NCBI GenBank assembly: GCA_002711845.1 | Contig: PASF01000009.1 | Location: 62,001-126,000 of the forward strand | DNA from: Gammaproteobacteria bacterium | GTDB lineage: Bacteria > Pseudomonadota > Gammaproteobacteria > Pseudomonadales > Pseudohongiellaceae | DNA: 64,000 nt | Reading direction: 5' to 3' | Shown: piece by piece, positions 65-26,073 of the stretch | Layout of the letters: each line of letters opens with the position of its first letter | How positions within the stretch are numbered: position 1 is the first letter of the stretch | The notes under the pieces: model-generated | The model's database searches: none | What the model was told of the DNA's origin: nothing | The model's input: only the letters and a program-made list of their open reading frames with translations | Translations under genes and position numbers: made by a program

Positions 65-1435
65 TTATGCTCCTGCGTTCGATTGCGGGTGGGTGGCCTG
101 GCCCGGGACCTGCTGCATGGCTAACAGAGAGGCTGCCGGTTTGCTCGCCATGTATCGCAGTGTGGCGATATAGGACACCAGGATGAACACGTACAGCGCC
201 ATATAGCCAGAGAGGGTCGTCAGCATGACGCCGCTGGCATGATCAGCGACCACGTCGGCGCTGGTCAGCAGGCCCTGTACGATCCAGGGCTGCCGGCCGA
301 TCTCGGTGACATACCAGCCCGCCAGCACAGCCACCCAGCCGGAGAAGGTCATCCAGGACGCCGCGGTCAGCAGAGCAGCGCTGGGCTTCTGTTTGCGCCT
401 GAACAGCTCCCAGCCGGCCCACCACGACACCAGGATCATCATCATGCCAACCCCTACCATGACACGGAAAGACCAGAACACAGCCGCGACGGGCGGGTGC
501 TCTCCTTCGAATTCGTTCAAACCTCTGACCTCACCATTGATGTCGTGGGTCAGTATCCAGCTGGCGGCGTAGGGGATTTCCAGCGCAAAGCGAGTGGTGC
601 GGGTGGCTTCGTCCGGGAATCCGAAGACGGTAAAGGGCACGCCCCGATGTGTTTCCCAGACGCCTTCTATGGCGGCAATCTTGGCAGGCTGATGTTTCAG
701 TGTGTTCAGGCCGTGAAGGTCACCGATGACAACCTGCAGCGGCGCGAACAGCATGGTAATCACCACCATGGCTTTGAAAATTTTGGCGGTGCCCGGACCG
801 TCCACTTTCTGTTTCATACGCCAGGCGCTGACACCCATGACCAGAAACGCGGCGGTCAACATGGTGGCAGCCATCATGTGCGCCAGCCGGTACGGAAAGG
901 ATGGGTTGAAAATGACAGCAGTCCAGCTGTCGACGTGGAAAACGCCGTCTTCAATAATGTAACCGGCGGGCGTCTGCATCCAGGAGTTCAGGCTCAGAAT
1001 CCAGAACGCAGACAGTGATGTGCCAACGGCCACCAGTGCGCAGGACAGCAGGTGCACTTTGTTGGATACGCGGTTTTTGCCAAACAGCATGACGCCGAGG
1101 AAGGTTGCTTCCAGAAAGAAAGCGGTCAGCACTTCGTAACCCAGCAAAGGCCCGGATATATTGCCGGTTCTCTCCATGAATCCTGGCCAGTTGGTGCCGA
1201 ACTGAAAGCTCATGGTAATGCCGGAGACCACGCCGATGGCGAAGGACAGGGCGAAAATCTTGACCCAGAAGTGGTAAGCGTTTTCCCAGTGTTTGTCGCC
1301 GGTGCTGGTGTAGCGCACGCGGAAAAACAGCAGTATCCATGCCAGACCCATGGTGATGGCCGGGAACAGAATATGGAAGCTGATATTGGCAGCGAACTGT
1401 ATTCGGGAGAGCACGAACGGATCCAAGTCAATCAT
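65..1435 (-). CDS. cydA: Cytochrome bd ubiquinol oxidase subunit I
   Basis: Membrane subunit of the high-affinity terminal oxidase that oxidises quinol and reduces oxygen to water; it carries hemes b558, b595 and d. The 456-residue product opens MIDLDPFVLSRIQFA, followed by the CydA segments FHILFPAITMGLAW, SFAIGVVSGITMSFQFGTNW and a GWYVTEIGRQPW motif near residue 390. The open frame extends upstream of this ATG, but the CydA-type N-terminus and an AGGTAGG Shine-Dalgarno fix the start at 1435. cydB follows after 4 nt. The peroxiredoxin gene lies just upstream on the same strand, with a terminator-like hairpin between them, so cydA has almost no private promoter space. Confidence 0.96.
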   Translation of the reverse strand: MIDLDPFVLSRIQFAANISFHILFPAITMGLAWILLFFRVRYTSTGDKHWENAYHFWVKIFALSFAIGVVSGITMSFQFGTNWPGFMERTGNISGPLLGYEVLTAFFLEATFLGVMLFGKNRVSNKVHLLSCALVAVGTSLSAFWILSLNSWMQTPAGYIIEDGVFHVDSWTAVIFNPSFPYRLAHMMAATMLTAAFLVMGVSAWRMKQKVDGPGTAKIFKAMVVITMLFAPLQVVIGDLHGLNTLKHQPAKIAAIEGVWETHRGVPFTVFGFPDEATRTTRFALEIPYAASWILTHDINGEVRGLNEFEGEHPPVAAVFWSFRVMVGVGMMMILVSWWAGWELFRRKQKPSAALLTAASWMTFSGWVAVLAGWYVTEIGRQPWIVQGLLTSADVVADHASGVMLTTLSGYMALYVFILVSYIATLRYMASKPAASLLAMQQVPGQATHPQSNAGA

Positions 1436-1455
1436 ACTGCCTACCTGTTCTGTGT

Positions 1456-1494
1456 TAAAAAAGAAGGGGGGCAGGGCGTGATCAAGCCCCTGCC
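1456..1494 (-). terminator. Terminator-like hairpin between peroxiredoxin gene and cydA
   Basis: Read on the minus strand, GGCAGGG (1494-1488) pairs with CCCTGCC (1476-1470) around an 11-nt loop. A C-rich then T-rich run ending in six T residues (to 1456) follows. It starts 8 nt after the peroxiredoxin stop and ends 20 nt before the cydA ATG. It looks like an intrinsic terminator, but its position makes an attenuator or processing site equally possible. Confidence 0.6.
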
Positions 1495-1502
1495 AATTAT
1501 CT

Positions 1503-2141
1503 TTACAGTGACTTCTTGCAGAAATAAAAATCGGTGCATTCGTATTCGCCCGATGCCACACGCCGATTGGCTTCATCAAAGGTCTTGGCTGGCGGCACAA
1601 TAACCTTGTCGCCGGGCTGCCAGCCTTCCGGTGTCGCGACACCATGAGCATCGCTGGTTTGCAGCGCCGTGAGTAGGCGCAGAAACTCGGCAATAGAGCG
1701 ACCGTTGGACATTGGGTAATACACCATGGCACGCAGTTTTCCTTCCGGATCAATCAGAAAAGTGGCGCGCACGGCAGAAGTATCTGAGGCACCTTCATGA
1801 ATCATGCCATATGCCTTGGCAACATCCATTTTCAGGTCGTCAATGATCGGGAAGGGTATTTCGACATCAAACTTTTCTTTGATGTTTCGCATCCAGGCAA
1901 TATGGGAATGCGTGCTGTCAATGGACAGGCCCAGTAACTCGGCGCCCAGTTTGGCGAAGGCTGGCGCCGCCTCGGCAAAGGCGATAAATTCCGTGGTGCA
2001 TACCGGCGTGAAGTCTGCCGGATGTGAGAACAGGACCAGCCACTTGCCACGATAGTCGTTCAGTGCGCGTGGCCCGTGTGTTGTGGGTGCGTTGAATGCC
2101 GGAGCGGCTTCATTAAGTCTGGGTAAACCGTTCTCGTTCAT
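1503..2141 (-). CDS. Peroxiredoxin, 1-Cys/Prx6 (AhpC/TSA) family
   Basis: Thiol peroxidase that reduces hydrogen peroxide or organic peroxides in the cytoplasm. The 212-residue protein has the peroxidatic cysteine motif HPADFTPVCTTEF with Cys48, the family Thr45 and a long C-terminal extension. Two further cysteines near the end (YECTDFYFC) resemble the C-terminal cysteine pair of archaeal-type Prx6 enzymes, so a resolving cysteine may be present despite the 1-Cys family name. The start at 2141 is supported by AGGAGG 9 nt upstream; a longer in-frame extension is not needed. It lies upstream of cydA on the same strand, which would suit joint use under low oxygen or oxidative stress. Confidence 0.92.
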   Translation of the reverse strand: MNENGLPRLNEAAPAFNAPTTHGPRALNDYRGKWLVLFSHPADFTPVCTTEFIAFAEAAPAFAKLGAELLGLSIDSTHSHIAWMRNIKEKFDVEIPFPIIDDLKMDVAKAYGMIHEGASDTSAVRATFLIDPEGKLRAMVYYPMSNGRSIAEFLRLLTALQTSDAHGVATPEGWQPGDKVIVPPAKTFDEANRRVASGEYECTDFYFCKKSL

Positions 2142-2402
2142 GTTTCCTGCCTCCTGATGGATTAATAGGATAGTCACGGGTATCCATTGCAGGGGGCGTG
2201 CCATAGCTGTTTTTAACGCTGCAAATAATTAGCAACATGCTGAATATAATAAATAATATATCCTTCTTAAGTATTCCCGAGGGTTCTGATTGTTGTCTCG
2301 CAGCGAATATTTTGCCGTAAATGGCAGAGAAATTGTCAATTATGACGAAGCCGCCGTGTATTGATCGAGACTGCTGATAAATGCCTGCGTGGCATCAGGG
2401 AT

Positions 2403-3299
2403 TTAAATCAGTAATCTGCTTTGTACCAGTACCGCAGTATTGCGAGGCACAATGTCCTTACCCTGCGCCTGCAACTGCACCTTGGTAAAGGCCGCGCCGA
2501 ACAGGAGAATGAGGGAGGAGTAGTAGACCCACATAAGGATCAGTACGACCGCACCGGCGGCACCATAGGCTGATGCCGGCGCGGTGTACGCCAGGTACGC
2601 GGCGATGGCATACCGACCCAGCGAGAACAGCAGGGCGGTTAACATGCCACCGACAATGACCTGTCGCCACTTAAGCACAACATCGGGCAGTACCTTGAAA
2701 ATGGTGGCAAACAGCAGGGTGACAACGGCAAATGACAGCAACAATTCGGCACCGCTGATCAGCATCTCCACGCCCGGCACAAAGCGAGCGGTAAAATCCA
2801 GCGTCGCGCGCAGGGCCACGCCCAGTACCAGCGATACCAGCAGCACAAAACCGATGGCAAGAACGACCATCAGCGAGAAGAACCGTTTTCGGATAAACAG
2901 AACCATGCTGTTGCGACTGGGTTTGGGTCGGACACCCCAGAGCGCATTCAGGGAATACTGCATTTGCGCGAAGACGGTTGTTGCCCCGATCATCAAGGCT
3001 GCAACGCCTGCCAGCGCTGGCAAAATACCGCTGTTGTCCACGCGTGAGTTGGAGACGGCTTCTTCGACCACAGATGCCGCTTCGGCACCCATGACATCCT
3101 GGAACTGGGCCACGATCTGACCTTGCGCGGCCTGTTCGCCCAGCACCAGGCCGATAACAGCGACGGCAATAATGACGGTCGGCGCCAGTGAGAACAGTGT
3201 GTAAAACGCTAGGGCGCCGGCGTGATTGAACGCGTTGCATTCAATCCAGAGTTTTCCCGAGTCACGGATGAGTTGCCATCCGTATCTCAATTTGTTCAA
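2403..3299 (-). CDS. YihY/BrkB family inner-membrane protein
   Basis: A 298-residue polytopic membrane protein of the YihY/virulence factor BrkB family. The family N-terminus is seen (NHAGALAFYTLFSLAPTVIIAVAVIGL, shown here only by its key residues H-GALAFY-LFSLAP). It is followed by the MQYSLNALWGVRPKP stretch and four more hydrophobic segments, ending with AGAVVLILMWVYYSSLILLFGAAF. Molecular function is not settled for the family. The start codon is TTG at 3299, preceded by GGGAG at a good distance; no suitable ATG exists upstream. It appears to be a single gene; the next gene upstream is 83 nt away. Confidence 0.88.
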   Translation of the reverse strand: MNKLRYGWQLIRDSGKLWIECNAFNHAGALAFYTLFSLAPTVIIAVAVIGLVLGEQAAQGQIVAQFQDVMGAEAASVVEEAVSNSRVDNSGILPALAGVAALMIGATTVFAQMQYSLNALWGVRPKPSRNSMVLFIRKRFFSLMVVLAIGFVLLVSLVLGVALRATLDFTARFVPGVEMLISGAELLLSFAVVTLLFATIFKVLPDVVLKWRQVIVGGMLTALLFSLGRYAIAAYLAYTAPASAYGAAGAVVLILMWVYYSSLILLFGAAFTKVQLQAQGKDIVPRNTAVLVQSRLLI

Positions 3300-3382
3300 A
3301 ACAACTCCCGCAATCAGCTTGCTGCCGTGAATTGGCTGCCGGCACTGTTATCGATCCATGCCGGCAGCGATCAGGTTTGCGA

Positions 3383-3868
3383 TCAGGGAACGCGGGCGGC
3401 GCGCACTTCGATTTCGATCAGCCAGCCGTCAACAACCAGGTCTTCGATTTCGACAAACGAGCGTACCGGTTTCATCGGGTTTTCTTCCGTGCCGAAAAAC
3501 TCCCGGTAGGCTTCGTTAAAGCCGTCAAAGTCCAGGAAGTCATTGTCGTCAGCCACGCCAAAGGCGCGAACCTGAATGATGTCGGACATTGACCAGCCTT
3601 CGGCTTCCAGTTTTTCCTTGAAACCATTAAAGGTATCGCGGGTCTGCTGTGCCATGTCACCCCAGGTACCATCTTCCAGGCGGCCGGCGCCGGCGCCGCT
3701 GAGATACATGAATTCAGCATTGGCGGGCACACGAATGGTGGTGTAAAAATGACGACCTTCGCCTTTGCGCTCGATTTCCTGGGCGCTGGCAAGCGGCGCA
3801 GTCACGGCGAGCATGCTGCCGACAACCAGAGCAGCGGGCGCAAAAATACACTTCTTCAATGATTTCAT
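3383..3868 (-). CDS. Exported RidA/YjgF-family protein
   Basis: A 161-residue protein with a clear Sec signal peptide (MKSLKKCIFAPAALVVGSML, cleavage likely after ASA at about residue 29) and then a RidA/YER057c/UK114 domain. RidA proteins deaminate reactive enamine/imine intermediates in the cytoplasm; the arginine that holds the substrate carboxylate is conserved here as Arg136 in KPVRSFVEI. The signal peptide makes this a periplasmic variant whose substrate is unknown. The start at 3868 has AGGA upstream. It stands alone between the BrkB and DUF503 genes. Confidence 0.85.
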   Translation of the reverse strand: MKSLKKCIFAPAALVVGSMLAVTAPLASAQEIERKGEGRHFYTTIRVPANAEFMYLSGAGAGRLEDGTWGDMAQQTRDTFNGFKEKLEAEGWSMSDIIQVRAFGVADDNDFLDFDGFNEAYREFFGTEENPMKPVRSFVEIEDLVVDGWLIEIEVRAARVP

Positions 3869-3966
3869 TTTAGTTTTCCTGTGCTGTGTTGAGATGTTAT
3901 AAGCGCCCTAAGTCTCGCTAATTGTGCGGATATAATCAAGCACTTAAGCAGTTTATCGATGTCGGT

Positions 3967-4308
3967 CTAAAGGATCTCGCGATGGACCTCAACGATGGGG
4001 GCATCGATTTTTTGTGCGATTGCTTTCTCCACCTGATCCAGTCGCGCGGTCAGTTGCTGACTGCTGCCGCCCAGGGCAACGATGCTCCACGTAGCACTGT
4101 CCAGTGCCTCGAAATCCCCGGTTTCGGCAACCGCCAGGTCAGCCTCCTTGCCCCACAAGGCGCGCAAAGCATTAAACACTTTTCGTTTGGCTTTCAGGTC
4201 GTCGACCCCGTAAAGCTGGAACTGCAAGGTCAGCACACCGACCGTTGGCGTTATCGAGGTGGGTGCTGCTTGCCGCTCGGCCAGCAACTTGCGAAACAGA
4301 TCAGACAT
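3967..4308 (-). CDS. DUF503 family protein (YlxP-like)
   Basis: A 113-residue soluble protein. Residues 22-95 match the DUF503 pattern: GVLTLQFQLYGVDDLKAKRKVFNALR, the AVAETGDFEALDSATWSIVAL core strand, and a helix with LDQVEKAI. The DUF503/YlxP family is small and its biochemical role is not established; in other bacteria the gene lies near translation factors, which is not the case here. AAGGAAG lies ahead of the ATG at 4308. It starts 21 nt after the crotonase gene ends on the same strand, so the two are probably co-transcribed. Confidence 0.8.
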   Translation of the reverse strand: MSDLFRKLLAERQAAPTSITPTVGVLTLQFQLYGVDDLKAKRKVFNALRALWGKEADLAVAETGDFEALDSATWSIVALGGSSQQLTARLDQVEKAIAQKIDAPIVEVHREIL

Positions 4309-4329
4309 GCGGTCTTCCTTTGGAGAATG

Positions 4330-5106
4330 TTATTTGCCCTTGAATACGCCAGCCCGGCGCTCAGCGACGGACGTCACGCCTTCCTGGAAGTCTTCGGTCA
4401 ACCGTTGCCAGTCCTGCTCCCGGGCTTCGTGGTCGGTGACTGCCTGCAGCATCTCGGTCAGGCCCTGCCGCACAGTGGCACGCACTGACATGACGGCGAG
4501 GGGCGCATTGCCGGCTATTTCCTGCGCCAGGGCCATGGCTTCGCTGCGCACCTGGTCGGCGCTGACCAGCACATCAGCCAGTCCCCATTCATGGGCCTGA
4601 TCGCCCTTGATGCGCCGCCCTGTATAAAACATGAGCGCGGCTTTTTGCTGCCCGATAATCGCCGGCAGGGTATGGGTCAAGCCAAAGCCGGGGTGGAAGC
4701 CCAGTTTACTGAAGTTGGCGGCAAAGCTGGCCTCCGGGCAGGTGACCCGAAAGTCAGGCACCAGGGCCAGACCCAGCCCGCCACCAATGGCAGCACCTTC
4801 GATGGCGCCCACCACCGGCTTTTTATTGCTGAACAGCCTGACCGCGGCCACATACAAGGGGTTGCGGCCCTGACCGTCGGACTGCTCCAACACCGACGGG
4901 CCGGATGAGAAGTTGGCGCCTGCGCAAAAGGCCTTGCCCTGCGCCGTCAGCACCAGCGCTCGACAGTCATCGTCTGCGTCCATGGCGTCAAAGGCGTCGG
5001 CCAGGTCCTCAATCAGTGCCACATCAAAGAAGTTATAAGGGGGACGTTGTATTTCCACGATTGCGACGTGGTTCTCCAGGGTGACGCTGATGTCGCCGAA
5101 TTGCAT
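4330..5106 (-). CDS. Enoyl-CoA hydratase/isomerase (crotonase) family protein, both catalytic Glu missing
   Basis: A 258-residue crotonase-fold protein. The oxyanion-hole segments are intact (AFCAGANF at residues 59-66 and AIGGGLGLAL at 106-115), so acyl-CoA thioester binding is expected. The two glutamates that activate water in classical enoyl-CoA hydratase are replaced: Gly112 stands where the GGGCE-type Glu is found, and Phe132 stands at the GQPE position (sequence FAANFSKLGFHPGFG). Hydratase activity is therefore unlikely; isomerase, hydrolase or another crotonase activity fits better. The start at 5106 has AAAGGA upstream. It is divergent from the prp operon regulator. Confidence 0.85.
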   Translation of the reverse strand: MQFGDISVTLENHVAIVEIQRPPYNFFDVALIEDLADAFDAMDADDDCRALVLTAQGKAFCAGANFSSGPSVLEQSDGQGRNPLYVAAVRLFSNKKPVVGAIEGAAIGGGLGLALVPDFRVTCPEASFAANFSKLGFHPGFGLTHTLPAIIGQQKAALMFYTGRRIKGDQAHEWGLADVLVSADQVRSEAMALAQEIAGNAPLAVMSVRATVRQGLTEMLQAVTDHEAREQDWQRLTEDFQEGVTSVAERRAGVFKGK

Positions 5107-20112: not shown

Positions 20113-21201
20113 ATGCTGGAACTGGCAGGCGTGAGCAAACGGCTGGGCAACGAGGATCACATCCGCGATGTCAGTCTGCAGCTGGAACGCGGATCAATGA
20201 ATGTGCTGCTGGGGCCAACTCTGTCAGGCAAGACCAGCCTGATGCGGCTGATGGCGGGGCTGGACCGGCCGACGCATGGCGATATTCTGCTTGACGGTGT
20301 CAGCGTGCTGGGTGTGCCCGTGCAAAAGCGTCGGGTCGCCATGGTCTATCAGCAGTTCATCAATTATCCCACCCTGACCATCTATGAAAACATCGCCTCG
20401 CCACTGCGTGTGGCCAGAGTGCCCCGGACAGACATTGATCGCAAGGTGCGTCATGCGGCTGATCTGTTACGGCTGACGGAGTACCTGGACAAACGACCTG
20501 CAGAACTCTCGGGTGGGCAGCAGCAGCGCACCGCCATTGCCCGGGCACTGGTCAAAGAGTCGCAACTGGTGCTGCTTGATGAACCACTGGCAAACCTGGA
20601 TTACAAGCTGCGCGAAGAGCTTCGCCAGGAATTGCCGCGCATTTTTGCCGAGCTGGGCGCGATTCTGGTGTACGCCAGTACCGAACCGTCCGAAGCCCTG
20701 CTCCTGGGAGGCAATACGGCCACCCTGCATCAGGGTCGTGTGACCCAGTTTGGTCGCACCATTGATGTCTTTCAGCGCCCGGTGGACCTGGTGACCGCCA
20801 GAATTTTCTCCGACCCGCCACTCAATACAGCGCCGGTCTGCAAGCGCGGCGCCGAGTTGCAGCTGGAGCGGTTTGTCATTCCGCTGTCGGGCAGCCAGGC
20901 GGCATTACCCGACGCCAGTTACACCCTGGGGCTGCGTCCCTGGCATCTGAGCCTGCAGGGCAGCAGCGGCTGCAGCGTTGAGGGGCAGGTAACGGTGACC
21001 GAAATCACCGGCTCTGAAACCTACAGTCATCTTCAGGTTGCCGGGCATCCCTGGGTGAGCCTGACCCATGGTATCCGGCAACCTGAAGTTGACACATTGC
21101 AGTCACTGTATTTTTTGCCGGAGAATATGTATTTGTTTGATGAGGCAGAGCGATTGGTACTGGCCCCTGATCTGCCGACGGAGCCAGCATGGCCAGAATA
21201 A
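20113..21201 (+). CDS. glpS: ABC importer ATP-binding protein, glycerol-type (GlpS-like)
   Basis: A 362-residue ATPase with a C-terminal TOBE-like domain, first gene of a six-gene importer operon. Walker A is GPTLSGKT (34-41), Walker B LVLLDEP (Asp156, Glu157), and the signature LSGGQQQR (132-139) is canonical. The H-loop is not: the segment reads YASTEPSEAL, putting Thr190 where the switch His belongs. Gene order matches the Rhizobium glycerol transporter glpSTPQ-U-V, hence the symbol; note these names differ from E. coli glpT and glpQ. AGGGTAGGG precedes the ATG. It overlaps the second ATPase gene by 13 nt. Confidence 0.82.
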   Translation: MLELAGVSKRLGNEDHIRDVSLQLERGSMNVLLGPTLSGKTSLMRLMAGLDRPTHGDILLDGVSVLGVPVQKRRVAMVYQQFINYPTLTIYENIASPLRVARVPRTDIDRKVRHAADLLRLTEYLDKRPAELSGGQQQRTAIARALVKESQLVLLDEPLANLDYKLREELRQELPRIFAELGAILVYASTEPSEALLLGGNTATLHQGRVTQFGRTIDVFQRPVDLVTARIFSDPPLNTAPVCKRGAELQLERFVIPLSGSQAALPDASYTLGLRPWHLSLQGSSGCSVEGQVTVTEITGSETYSHLQVAGHPWVSLTHGIRQPEVDTLQSLYFLPENMYLFDEAERLVLAPDLPTEPAWPE

Positions 21202-22262
21202 CGCTCAAAAATATTGCGCATTCTTACGACGGTGGCGACAGTTACGCGCTGAAGGCCATGTCTCATGAATGGCTTGATGGTGGCGCCTATGCGTTACTGG
21301 GGCCGTCAGGCTGCGGTAAAACCACCTTGCTCAACATAATCTCGGGACTGCTGCAGCCCAGTGAGGGGCAGTTGTTATTCGATGGTGTCGACGTCAGCCA
21401 GCTACCCACCGAGCAACGCAACATCGCTCAGGTATTCCAGTTTCCGGTACTGTACGACACCATGACAGTGGCAGAAAACCTGGCGTTTCCGTTGCGTAAC
21501 AGACGGGGAGCAGACAAGCTGTCAGCTGCGGAAATTGCCAGTCGTGTGCAGCAGGCCATCGCCATGCTCGGGCTGGAAGCATTGGCCGGGCGCAAGGCGC
21601 GCGGCCTGAGTGCTGACGATAAACAGAAAATTTCCCTGGGCCGGGGCCTGGTGCGTACCGATGTCAATGCCATCCTGTTCGATGAACCCCTGACGGTGAT
21701 CGATCCGCATCTGAAGTGGCAGTTGCGCACCCAACTGAAGCAGATCCACCGTCAGTTCGGGCATACCATGATATATGTGACACACGACCAGACTGAGGCG
21801 CTGACCTTCGCCGATAAAGTGGTGGTGATGCTCGCAGGCGAAGTGGTGCAGGTCGGCACACCACAGCAACTGTTTGATACGCCCCAACATACCTTTGTCG
21901 GCAAATTCATTGGCTCGCCCGGCATGAATGTACTGCCCTGTGAACTGGCCGGCAATGAAGCGGTTGTGGACGGTCATCACATTGCGCTGGTCCGGGAATA
22001 CCCGGTGCTGACGGGCGTGATGGAGCTGGGGATACGACCGGAGTTTGTGCGGCTGGTGGGTCAGGGGCAGGGCATCCCGGTACAGATCATCAGCGTTGAG
22101 GATGTCGGGCGACACCGGATTGCCCGGGCACAGCTGAACAGTCACCGGCTGGATATTATTGTGCCAGAGCATCAGCCGCTGCCCAGTATGCCTTGCGTGC
22201 TGTTTGACAGCGACAGAATCAATATTTACCAGAATTCACAGTTGGTTGGGTGGGACTTATGA
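21189..22262 (+). CDS. glpT: ABC importer ATP-binding protein, glycerol-type (GlpT-like)
   Basis: A 357-residue second ATPase of the same importer. Walker A GPSGCGKT (38-45), Walker B AILFDEP (Asp165, Glu166) and the H-loop VTHDQTEAL (His199) are intact. The ABC signature is degenerate: LSADDKQ at 140-146 replaces LSGGQ. The C-terminal half is a MalK-like regulatory/TOBE region. With its partner, which keeps the signature but lacks the switch His, it would form one complete and one defective ATP site. It overlaps the first ATPase gene by 13 nt, consistent with coupled, equimolar synthesis. Confidence 0.82.
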   Translation: MARITLKNIAHSYDGGDSYALKAMSHEWLDGGAYALLGPSGCGKTTLLNIISGLLQPSEGQLLFDGVDVSQLPTEQRNIAQVFQFPVLYDTMTVAENLAFPLRNRRGADKLSAAEIASRVQQAIAMLGLEALAGRKARGLSADDKQKISLGRGLVRTDVNAILFDEPLTVIDPHLKWQLRTQLKQIHRQFGHTMIYVTHDQTEALTFADKVVVMLAGEVVQVGTPQQLFDTPQHTFVGKFIGSPGMNVLPCELAGNEAVVDGHHIALVREYPVLTGVMELGIRPEFVRLVGQGQGIPVQIISVEDVGRHRIARAQLNSHRLDIIVPEHQPLPSMPCVLFDSDRINIYQNSQLVGWDL

Positions 22263-22278
22263 CACGTTGGAGATTTTC

Positions 22279-22318
22279 GTGAAACCCTGGAGCTTATCGT
22301 GAAACCCTGGAGCTTATC

Positions 22319-22332
<14 letters not shown>
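22279..22332 (+). repeat. 20-bp tandem duplication of a ribosome-site/start-codon module
   Basis: The 20-bp unit GTGAAACCCTGGAGCTTATC occurs at 22279-22298 and 22299-22318. A third, partial copy (22319-22331) becomes the start of the permease gene. Each unit holds GTG AAA CCC TGG plus a GGAG placed 6 nt before the next GTG. The first two GTGs open seven-codon frames that stop at a TGA overlapping the next GTG. A diverged half-unit (TTGGAGATTTTC) precedes the first copy, suggesting the original start was 22279-like. Confidence 0.9.
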
Positions 22333-23208
<876 letters not shown>

Positions 23209-23212
<4 letters not shown>

Positions 23213-24033
23213 GTCTGTCGGCCCGTCATTCACGGTCCAGTCAGGCCTGGCTGGTGCCCACCGTTTACATTCTTTTTCTGATGCTGCCCCTGTACTGGCT
23301 GCTGATGATGAGTTTCAAGACCAATCAGGAAATCCTGTCCACATTTTCGCTGTGGCCGCAGGATTTCACGCTGCAGAACTATCGCACCATTCTGACCGAT
23401 GCCAGTTGGTACAGCGGCTATATCAACTCGATGATTTACGTGGTGATGAACACTGTCATCTCGCTGGCAGTGGCGCTGCCAGCCGCCTATGCGTTTTCTC
23501 GCTATCGTTTTCTGGGCGACAAGCACCTTTTCTTCTGGTTACTGACCAATCGTATGGCACCGCCGGCCGTGTTTGTGTTGCCGTTTTTTCAGTTGTACTC
23601 TGCCTTTGGCCTGATCGATACCCATATTGCGGTAGCGCTGGCCCATTGTCTGTTCAATGTGCCACTGGCGGTCTGGATTCTGGAAGGTTTTATGTCCAGT
23701 GTGCCCAAAGAGATCGACGAAACTGCCTATATTGATGGCTATTCGTTTCCGCGCTTCTTTGGCAAAATTTTCATGCCTCTGATAGCCTCGGGAATCGGTG
23801 TGGCAGCCTTTTTCTGCTTCATGTTTTCCTGGGTGGAACTGTTGATTGCGCGCACCCTGACGGTGACCGATGCCAAGCCCATTTCCGCGATCATGACGCG
23901 AACCGTCTCGGCATCGGGTCTGGACTGGGGGGTGCTGGCGGCTGCCGGGGTGTTGACGGTGATACCCGGTGCGCTGGTGATCTATTTTGTACGCAACCAT
24001 ATCGCGCGGGGCTTCGCCCTGGGGCGTGTTTAA
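23209..24033 (+). CDS. glpQ: ABC importer permease, glycerol-type (GlpQ-like)
   Basis: A 274-residue MalG-type permease. Segments include LVPTVYILFLMLPLYWLLMMSF, a long YINSMIYVVMNTVISLAVALPAAYAF membrane region (shown by its ends only), the EAA loop VPKEIDETAYIDGYSFPRFFGKIFMP (key residues E-A-DG---F-KI--P) and a final FVRNHIARGFALGRV typical of this subfamily. The ATG overlaps the first permease stop. A GGGGGAGG ribosome site for the next gene follows its stop. Confidence 0.83.
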
Positions 24034-24050
24034 CGGGGGAGGCATTGACC

Positions 24051-24332
24051 ATGGATTTATCCTGGATGGCCTGGACGACGCCGACCGCTATATTTTTTGC
24101 CGTCATTGGCAGCCTGATCGCCCTGATGTGTGTCTGGGAAGCGGTCAGCCCCGGCGGTCAGCCGCGCAAGGGTATACTGCAATTCGAAACCACTCGTGGT
24201 GACCGGCTGTTTGTGAGCCTGCTGGGCAGCGCCTTTATCAATCTGGCCTGGCTGGCGTGGGCGGGCCCGCCGCTGTGGGGGGCACTGGGCGTCTGTGTGC
24301 TATTTGCTGTGCTCGTATTTCTGTTTGTCTGA
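24051..24332 (+). CDS. DUF2160 small membrane protein of the glycerol-type ABC operon
   Basis: A 93-residue protein with three hydrophobic segments: TPTAIFFAVIGSLIALMCVWEA, LFVSLLGSAFINLAWLAWAG and ALGVCVLFAVLVFLFV. A conserved loop GGQPRKGILQFETTRGDRLF lies between the first two. This is the DUF2160 family, found with glycerol-type importers, where it is named GlpU in rhizobia; its role is unknown. The ATG at 24051 has GGGGAGG 8 nt upstream; an in-frame TTG two codons earlier is less likely. Confidence 0.82.
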   Translation: MDLSWMAWTTPTAIFFAVIGSLIALMCVWEAVSPGGQPRKGILQFETTRGDRLFVSLLGSAFINLAWLAWAGPPLWGALGVCVLFAVLVFLFV

Positions 24333-24354
24333 TAACAATAACCGGAGATGTCTC

Positions 24355-26073
24355 ATGTTACCTAAAAAAACTGCGATTGTGGCCCTGATGGGGGCTGCCG
24401 GCCCACTGTTCCTTCTGTCGGCGTCTCCGTTGTTGGCTGATACGGAAGCGGCGCAGCGCTGGCTGGACGAATTTCAGCCCTCGACCCTGAGCCGTGACGA
24501 GCAGATGACTGAACTGCAGTGGTTTATCGACGCGGCCCGCCCCTACCAGGGGATGGAAATCAAGGTCGTGTCAGAAACGCTGACGACACATGAGTATGAA
24601 GCGCAGACGCTGGCGCGGGCATTTACCGACATTACCGGTATTGAAGTGACACATGACCTGATTGGTGAAGGCGATGTGGTGGAAAAGTTGCAGACCCAGA
24701 TGCAGTCGGGTGAAAACATCTACGATGCCTACGTCAACGACTCTGATCTGATTGGTACACATTTTCGTTATCAACAGGTACGCAATCTCACCGACTGGAT
24801 GGCTGGCGAGGGCAGTGCGGTAACCTCGCCGACACTGGATCTGGACGATTTTATTGGCCTGTCATTCACCACGGCTCCGGACGGCAAAGTCTACCAGTTG
24901 CCCGATCAGCAGTTTGCCAATTTGTACTGGTTCCGTTATGACTGGTTCACGGACCCTGACATCAAGGCGCAGTTTCAGGATAAATACGGCTACGAACTGG
25001 GTGTGCCGGTGAACTGGTCGGCGTATGAAGATATTGCCGAATTCTTCACCAATGATATTGGCACCCTTGACGGACGTCGTGTTTACGGGCACATGGATTA
25101 CGGCAAAAAAGATCCGTCACTGGGCTGGCGTTTTACCGATGCCTGGTTGTCCATGGCCGGTGCCGGTGATGTGGGTATTCCCAATGGTCTGCCGGTAGAC
25201 GAGTGGGGTATCCGGGTTGATGGTTGCCGGCCGGTTGGCTCCAGTGTTGAGCGTGGCGGCGCAACGGATGGGCCGGCAGCGGTCTACTCGGTCACCAAGT
25301 ATGTCGAATGGCTGCAGAAATACGCACCGCCGGAAGCGGCGGGCATGGTCTTCAGTGAAGCCGGACCGGTGCCGGCACAGGGCAATATCGCCCAGCAGAT
25401 TTTCTGGTACACGACCTTTACGGCGGACATGGTCAGGCCGGGCCTGCCGGTGATGAATGAAGATGGCACCCCCAAGTGGCGCATGGCACCATCACCGCGT
25501 GGTGCGTATTGGGAGGAGGGTCAGAAGCTGGGCTATCAGGATGCCGGTGCCTGGACACTGATGAAATCGACGCCAGTGGATCGTGCCAGCGCTGCCTGGT
25601 TATACGCGCAGTTCGTCACCTCCAAAACGGTGTCTCTGAAAAAGAGCCATGTGGGACTGACGATTATCCGGGATTCGGACATCCGTCATGAAAGTTTCAC
25701 CGAACGCGCGGATGAGCTGGGCGGCCTGGTTGAATTCTATCGATCTCCGGCCCGCCTGCAATGGACGCCTACCGGCACCAATGTGCCAGATTATCCGCGT
25801 CTGGCACAGTTGTGGTGGCAGAATATTGGTGATGCAGCCTCCGGCGCCAAGACGCCTCAGGAAGCCATGACATCGCTGGCAGCCGACCAGGATCGCCTGA
25901 TGCAGCGGCTGGAACGCGCTAACGTGCTCGGTGAATGCGGACCACGTCTGAATGAGCCGCAAAGCCGTGAGTACTGGTTTGCCCAGCCCGGGGCACCCAA
26001 ACCACCATTGGCCAACGAAAAGCCGCAACCCATGACTGTGGATTATGATGAGCTGGTGCAAAGCTGGCAGTGA
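24355..26073 (+). CDS. glpV: ABC importer solute-binding protein, glycerol-type (GlpV-like)
   Basis: A 572-residue periplasmic binding protein with a signal peptide ending near residue 28 (ASPLLA-D). It is long for a family-1 solute-binding protein, as expected of the GlpV subgroup. Seen are EIKVVSETLTTHEYEAQTLARAF, YDAYVNDSDLIGTHFRY, YQLPDQQFANLYWFRYDWF and a C-terminal YWFAQPGAPKPPLANEKPQPM. It presumably delivers glycerol or another small polyol to the two permeases. GGAG precedes the ATG; the motif GATAACAATAAC lies at 24331-24342, as before several other genes here. No glycerol kinase or dehydrogenase gene is nearby. Confidence 0.85.
   Translation: MLPKKTAIVALMGAAGPLFLLSASPLLADTEAAQRWLDEFQPSTLSRDEQMTELQWFIDAARPYQGMEIKVVSETLTTHEYEAQTLARAFTDITGIEVTHDLIGEGDVVEKLQTQMQSGENIYDAYVNDSDLIGTHFRYQQVRNLTDWMAGEGSAVTSPTLDLDDFIGLSFTTAPDGKVYQLPDQQFANLYWFRYDWFTDPDIKAQFQDKYGYELGVPVNWSAYEDIAEFFTNDIGTLDGRRVYGHMDYGKKDPSLGWRFTDAWLSMAGAGDVGIPNGLPVDEWGIRVDGCRPVGSSVERGGATDGPAAVYSVTKYVEWLQKYAPPEAAGMVFSEAGPVPAQGNIAQQIFWYTTFTADMVRPGLPVMNEDGTPKWRMAPSPRGAYWEEGQKLGYQDAGAWTLMKSTPVDRASAAWLYAQFVTSKTVSLKKSHVGLTIIRDSDIRHESFTERADELGGLVEFYRSPARLQWTPTGTNVPDYPRLAQLWWQNIGDAASGAKTPQEAMTSLAADQDRLMQRLERANVLGECGPRLNEPQSREYWFAQPGAPKPPLANEKPQPMTVDYDELVQSWQ

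Follow-up and report, generated by a model that had tools for sequence, protein, structure and literature searches.

The window, by which we mean the whole stretch of 64,000 nucleotides that was analysed, contains an operon for an ABC transporter, and the positions of its genes and of the features at one of its junctions are collected in Table 1. The gene make-up resembles that of the glycerol ABC system GlpSTPQV, a likeness of gene content that makes glycerol no more than a candidate substrate. The 56-nt gap between the second ATPase gene and the first permease gene is occupied by a continuous series of four RTGA overlaps, which joins the ATPase, three seven-codon frames and the permease. In addition, the second permease gene overlaps the first by ATGA (23209-23212), and the overlap pattern thus goes on down the operon.

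Table 1. Genes and sequence features at and around the ATPase-permease junction (positions in the window; ribosome-site duplex energies in kcal/mol).
Feature	Position	Strand	Remarks
First ATPase of the ABC transporter	20113-21201		
Second ABC-transporter ATPase, 357 aa (upstream gene)	21189-22262	+	PF00005
GGGA, weak putative ribosome site of tiny frame 1	22252-22255	+	Within the 3' end of the ATPase gene; duplex -6.3 (15-nt stretch)
Tiny frame 1, MTRWRFS and stop	22259-22282	+	ATGA overlap with the ATPase stop (22259-22262)
Tandem array	22268-22331	+	Unit TGGAGCTTATCGTGAAACCC; period 20; 3.2 copies
GGAG ahead of GTG 22279	22269-22272	+	Duplex -6.4
Tiny frame 2, VKPWSLS and stop	22279-22302	+	GTGA overlap with the stop of frame 1
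GGAG ahead of GTG 22299	22289-22292	+	Duplex -5.6
Tiny frame 3, VKPWSLS and stop	22299-22322	+	GTGA overlap with the stop of frame 2
GGAG ahead of the permease start	22309-22312	+	Duplex -5.6
First ABC permease, 297 aa (downstream gene)	22319-23212	+	PF00528; start region the same in relatives; GTGA over the stop of frame 3
Second permease	23209-24033		
DUF2160 small membrane protein	24045-24332		
Binding protein	24295-26073		Pfam matches slightly below gathering scores

Among the 17 tandem-repeat rows of the window, the array of TGGAGCTTATCGTGAAACCC received the top score (114, against 53 for the runner-up). The original prediction had described a duplicated module of ribosome site and start ahead of the permease, and the array agrees with it, GGAG standing 6 nt before each of the three GTG starts. 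The starts themselves, ATG 22259 and GTG 22279, 22299 and 22319, the last of which belongs to the permease, are spaced by 20 nt. Because this unit length is 2 mod 3, every copied start opens a seven-codon frame whose TGA falls on the next start. The GTGA overlaps that had been ascribed to a period that is not a multiple of three are indeed those of the frames from 22279 and 22299, and a usable start is present whatever the copy number, as had also been proposed. At all four links, each start shares four bases with the TGA before it, so the -4/-1 nt stop/start overlap of a coupled gene pair is found at every step (four RTGA in the window). Only the count of the tiny frames has to be corrected: two had been named, corresponding to frames 2 and 3, while a third, from ATG 22259, had been missed. 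Since this frame starts on the ATPase stop and ends at 22282, the chain begins at the ATPase. The unit to which it belongs (22259-22278) is a diverged copy that matches the next unit at 14 of 20 bases. The duplex energies were calculated with a presumed anti-SD sequence. The array sequence had a single match in the whole genome. An assembly artefact is unlikely, because the array is only 64 bp long and diverged versions of it lie at the same junction in two other species.

We scanned the native sequence for tiny frames that overlap in series between two open frames, each of at least 100 codons. A 244-kb sample of this genome yielded 43 direct overlaps, six one-link chains, one two-link chain and one three-link chain, the last being the junction in the window. 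No further three-link chain was found in the four sets scanned (1.33 Mb in total; the sets overlap, with at least one contig, L032/L120, in common). Two-link chains in the 1.33 Mb lay at the corresponding junction of two relatives (G006, G011) as well as at three further places, and one-link chains were common, at 57. The same 244-kb sample held seven tandem arrays with a score of at least 60, and the six others all lie inside open frames of at least 100 codons, with periods of 12 or 18 in five and of 25 in one. Frames of such shortness are easily missed in gene annotation.

The permease is present in 10 of the 15 genomes of the genus, and three of these ten (this genome, G000, together with G011 and G006) carry 20-nt arrays at the junction, in which the units have diverged and every link is intact. 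The units of G011 are ATGAAACCCTGGAACTCTAT and ATGAAACCCTGGATCTGTTT, whereas the array of G006 consists of a 15-nt piece followed by GTGAAATCCTGGAGCTGCTT and GTGACACCCCGGAGCTATTT; both form two-link chains, and the frames of G006 have 12 and 7 codons. In the remaining species, the junction is a plain ATGA overlap (G013, G009 and G001) or TGA-ccc-ATG with a 3-nt gap (G002, G003 and G010), while that of G004 is cut by a contig end and is probably like that of G002. The comparison of copy number among relatives that had been suggested, made with one genome for each species, revealed differences between species, with three tiny frames here, two in G011, two in G006 and none in G013 and G009. In a tree of three operon genes, in which two genomes lacked one gene, G000 and G011 were sisters (support 96) and G013 was next (92), while the order of G009 and G006 was poorly supported (59). 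This topology requires two gains of the array, or one gain followed by two losses. Between the three species with arrays, the synonymous distance ranged from 0.59 to 2.41 in the three genes. Close spacing of this gene pair is conserved, the distance from ATPase to permease being -4 to +15 nt in 79 of 80 database loci of this transporter (named records, among which L032 is apparently the contig of G003); the only exception is L061, with an interrupted upstream frame. Another genus in the same family contributes two loci (G028 and G033) whose spacers, of 55 and 32 nt, contain no chain, which shows that a long spacer at this junction need not carry a relay.

To search for relays at other genes, we used the pattern RTGA-N6-GGA-N7 twice plus RTGA. 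It was found in 3 of the 15 genomes of the genus, at this junction only, in 5 of 381 genomes at the level of the order (against 1 of 381 for the reversed control) and in 3 of 398 genomes of the phylum; a 21-nt-spaced version, as an off-period look, matched in 0 of 15 and 4 of 390 genomes. Two further scans left the period free (381 and 283 genomes). The pattern demanding RTGA throughout recovered G223 and, first, G030, whereas G216 and G233 were found with a pattern demanding RTGA at both ends. In G030, hisH and hisF are joined by three links of 20 nt (L174 1566-1626, G030:C3) through TTGA, ATGA, ATGA and ATGA, the TTGA lying on the hisH stop. Among nine other genomes of its genus, hisH and hisF show a plain 4-nt overlap in six (counted, for G057 and G048, from an ATG six bases before a nearer TTG) and gaps of 11 and 16 nt in two, the latter in G035, where hisF follows hisH without overlap; in the ninth, G040, no hisH frame was found. 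In G223, two 20-nt units with tiny frames precede a lipoyl-ligase-like gene, and no coupled upstream gene was seen. The longest relay that we found lies in G233, between the genes of a HAD-type hydrolase and an hslR-like (S4-domain) protein, where seven 17-nt units form seven links of six-codon frames (L192 1447-1566, G233:C66). Four relatives of G233 in genus g85 have gaps of 16-64 nt before hslR, and all are chained, with two links in G212, one in G291, one of 22 codons in G310 and one of 14 codons ending at -8 (an 8-nt overlap) in G162; in G346 the gap is a plain 3 nt. G216 has two 17-nt units before argH, and the last frame, of 12 codons, overlaps argH by 11 nt (L191 1556-1628, G216:C49). 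In G257, a 17-nt unit is present in four copies between the genes for an acyl-CoA dehydrogenase and an enoyl-CoA hydratase (L173 1497-1562, G257:C1), with a 15-codon frame that stops 3 nt before the real start; its first frame would end beside the real start at some copy numbers only. The original observation was correct but understated, because a complete relay runs from the ATPase stop and comparable relays exist at other genes.

Among the matches listed, triplet-period arrays made up 22 of 26 tandem clusters, and all five non-triplet arrays at gene starts (G000, G030, G257, G216 and G233) had a period of 2 mod 3; none of 1 mod 3 at a gene start was among the matches listed from the two period-free scans, the numbers being small. 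Several candidates were set aside. The match to the 20-nt pattern in G346 is not tandem, and no long frame follows it; a possible diverged pair before a transporter-like frame in G639 was doubtful and left out of the count; and, judged from the flanking sequence, the arrays with periods of 22 nt (G081), 19 nt (G174) and 7 nt (G232, next to a stretch of N) do not lie at gene starts. Tandem repeats based on AATGACG mimic the pattern (L193 and L194 of G081, 22 nt; L207 of G174, 18-19 nt) and are not at gene starts where checked. We also noted CCC before TGGA or AGGA in at least one unit at unrelated genes (G000 22279-22318, G030 L174 1586-1605 and G223 L175 1532-1551).

The explanation that we consider best, and hold to be fairly probable, is that the initiation region at a coupled junction was duplicated in tandem and has been upheld since units of 2 mod 3 preserve termination-reinitiation. 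The permease initiation region (ribosome site, spacer, start and first codons) would have been duplicated at a junction with an ATGA overlap; from the single-copy junction of G013, we infer a route between TGGGA in the tail of the ATPase gene and TGGA in codons 4-5 of the permease. A ribosome terminating at TGA 22260-22262 would then reinitiate at ATG 22259, translate seven codons and stop, and reinitiation at 22279, 22299 and 22319 would bring it into the permease, while new ribosomes may also be recruited at each GGAG. Experiments in E. coli showed that reinitiation fell by 80-90% across a 38-nt gap in two gene pairs and ceased in a third, and that the final 15 nt of the upstream gene were enough to support it (PMC10666635). 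Given that loss, a 56-nt gap should uncouple the permease from the ATPase. The relay probably allows ribosomes to bridge a distance over which the two genes would otherwise be uncoupled, and its effect would be to maintain ATPase-permease coupling over the 56 nt. However, when a unit of 2 mod 3 is duplicated, the chain comes with it automatically.

This counterpoint supports the strongest alternative, which we regard as rather doubtful, namely that the start region was copied when slippage occurred between TGGA stretches of similar sequence and that such insertions come and go without function. Every copy retains a ribosome site and a start, so insertions would be tolerated. The two identical units in the array of this genome suggest a recent copy, the unit number varies between species, and the tree calls for two gains, or one gain and two losses. 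Shuffling the spacers also often gave a chain: under the strict rule (-4/-1), 278, 974 and 866 of 5000 shuffles chained for G000, G011 and G006, and 186, 680, 1411, 2578 and 4697 of 5000 for G030, G233, G212, G310 and G291, amounting to 4-52% of trials at seven loci and 94% at the eighth. Under a laxer rule (-8 to +3), the counts were 962, 1472 and 1617 of 5000 for G000, G011 and G006, and across the eight loci and G162 they ranged from 886 to 5000. Because the shuffles of G291 under the strict rule and of G162 under the laxer one (5000 of 5000) chain almost always or always, these two loci prove nothing on their own, and an argument for selection from the shuffles alone was rejected as too weak. 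Against neutrality, the chains are intact in three of three array species despite their synonymous distances. When decay was simulated neutrally with substitutions only, the chain was kept in 37% (G000), 58% (G011) and 55% (G006) of cases at 0.1 substitutions per site and in 10%, 26% and 24%, respectively, at 0.3 per site. In addition, 8 of the 20 columns are invariant among the seven full units of the three species, and they include all of TGA and GGA, whereas most spacer columns vary; the probability that all six TGA/GGA columns fall within eight random invariant columns is 7e-4, a value that is post hoc and comes from related rows. The lack of a gene-start array of 1 mod 3 among the matches listed from both scans points the same way, in small numbers. 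Taken together, the invariant columns, the decay and the shuffles moderately favour selective upkeep of the chain.

An improbable alternative is that the number of links sets the ratio of permease to ATPase, with ribosomes lost at each reinitiation or gained at the added sites, and that slippage adjusts this number. The variation in unit number between species would fit, as would the up to 20-fold rise in downstream output brought about by synthetic short frames that contain an internal ribosome site (PMC13255528); however, the seven-link hslR case suggests that long chains are tolerated. Very unlikely is attenuation by leader peptides that sense an amino acid or stall ribosomes: short frames do stand ahead of the gene, and six of the seven full units have an in-frame Trp codon, but the peptides differ (MTRWRFS, VKPWSLS, MKPWNSI, MKPWICL, VKSWSCL and VTPRSYL), and the conserved or residue-rich peptide with a terminator/antiterminator that marks an amino-acid attenuator leader was not found. 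An RNA switch, attenuator or fold is likewise unsupported, there being no strong fold at the array (z +1.79), no Rfam match and, in a consensus scan, no terminator-like site within it.

More speculatively, the relays may belong to a class of start modules, so far without a name, that arise repeatedly and duplicate themselves (17 or 20 nt, 2 mod 3); units could then be added or lost at a junction of coupled genes with the ribosome relay left unbroken, and the number of reinitiation steps could be an evolvable setting of subunit ratios. The natural series of 0, 2 and 3 tiny frames here and up to 7 elsewhere offers a means of asking whether one ribosome can reinitiate repeatedly and what is lost per step, and a frame rule is suggested, by which a unit length of 2 mod 3 decides which junction duplications survive. 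In the literature searched, largely outside the subscription journals, we found no description of tandem relays, which is not proof of their absence.

In the bicistronic design, a short frame carries the ribosome site of the next gene near its own stop. Synthetic upstream nonsense-peptide frames (PMC13255528) share this arrangement with the units described here. In contrast to both, the relay in the window occurs naturally, consists of several frames in a chain and is fed by a gene upstream of it. For bacterial leader genes near structural genes, reinitiation from the leader frame has been proposed to raise expression, and their distances peak at 10-11 bp, unlike the tandem overlapping units of the window (PMC4833913). 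The tiny frame described in PMC8708949 likewise acts in cis on the next gene, but it has two codons, ends 15 nt before the gene and has no overlapping tandem copy. Mycobacterial interspersed repetitive units (MIRUs) are closer: the repeat has a short frame that is coupled, at -4 nt, to the gene where it is inserted, which is thought to limit the effect on expression; they are also apparently mobile (PMC12548453) and, by name, interspersed. By their overlaps, the tiny frames of the window stand at -4 nt to the next start as well, but instead of copies interspersed at many loci there is one match in the genome, and the 20-nt unit looks locally derived. Closest of all is termination-reinitiation coupling by ATGA: 4-nt ATGA overlaps are overrepresented between genes for the subunits of heteromeric complexes (PMC10666635), and here each link is an RTGA overlap and the genes on either side code for components of a single transporter, the difference being that three seven-codon frames are chained in tandem between two genes. 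The relay is thus a variant of translational coupling and not a MIRU; its link is ordinary, and it is set apart by the chain of tandem copies.
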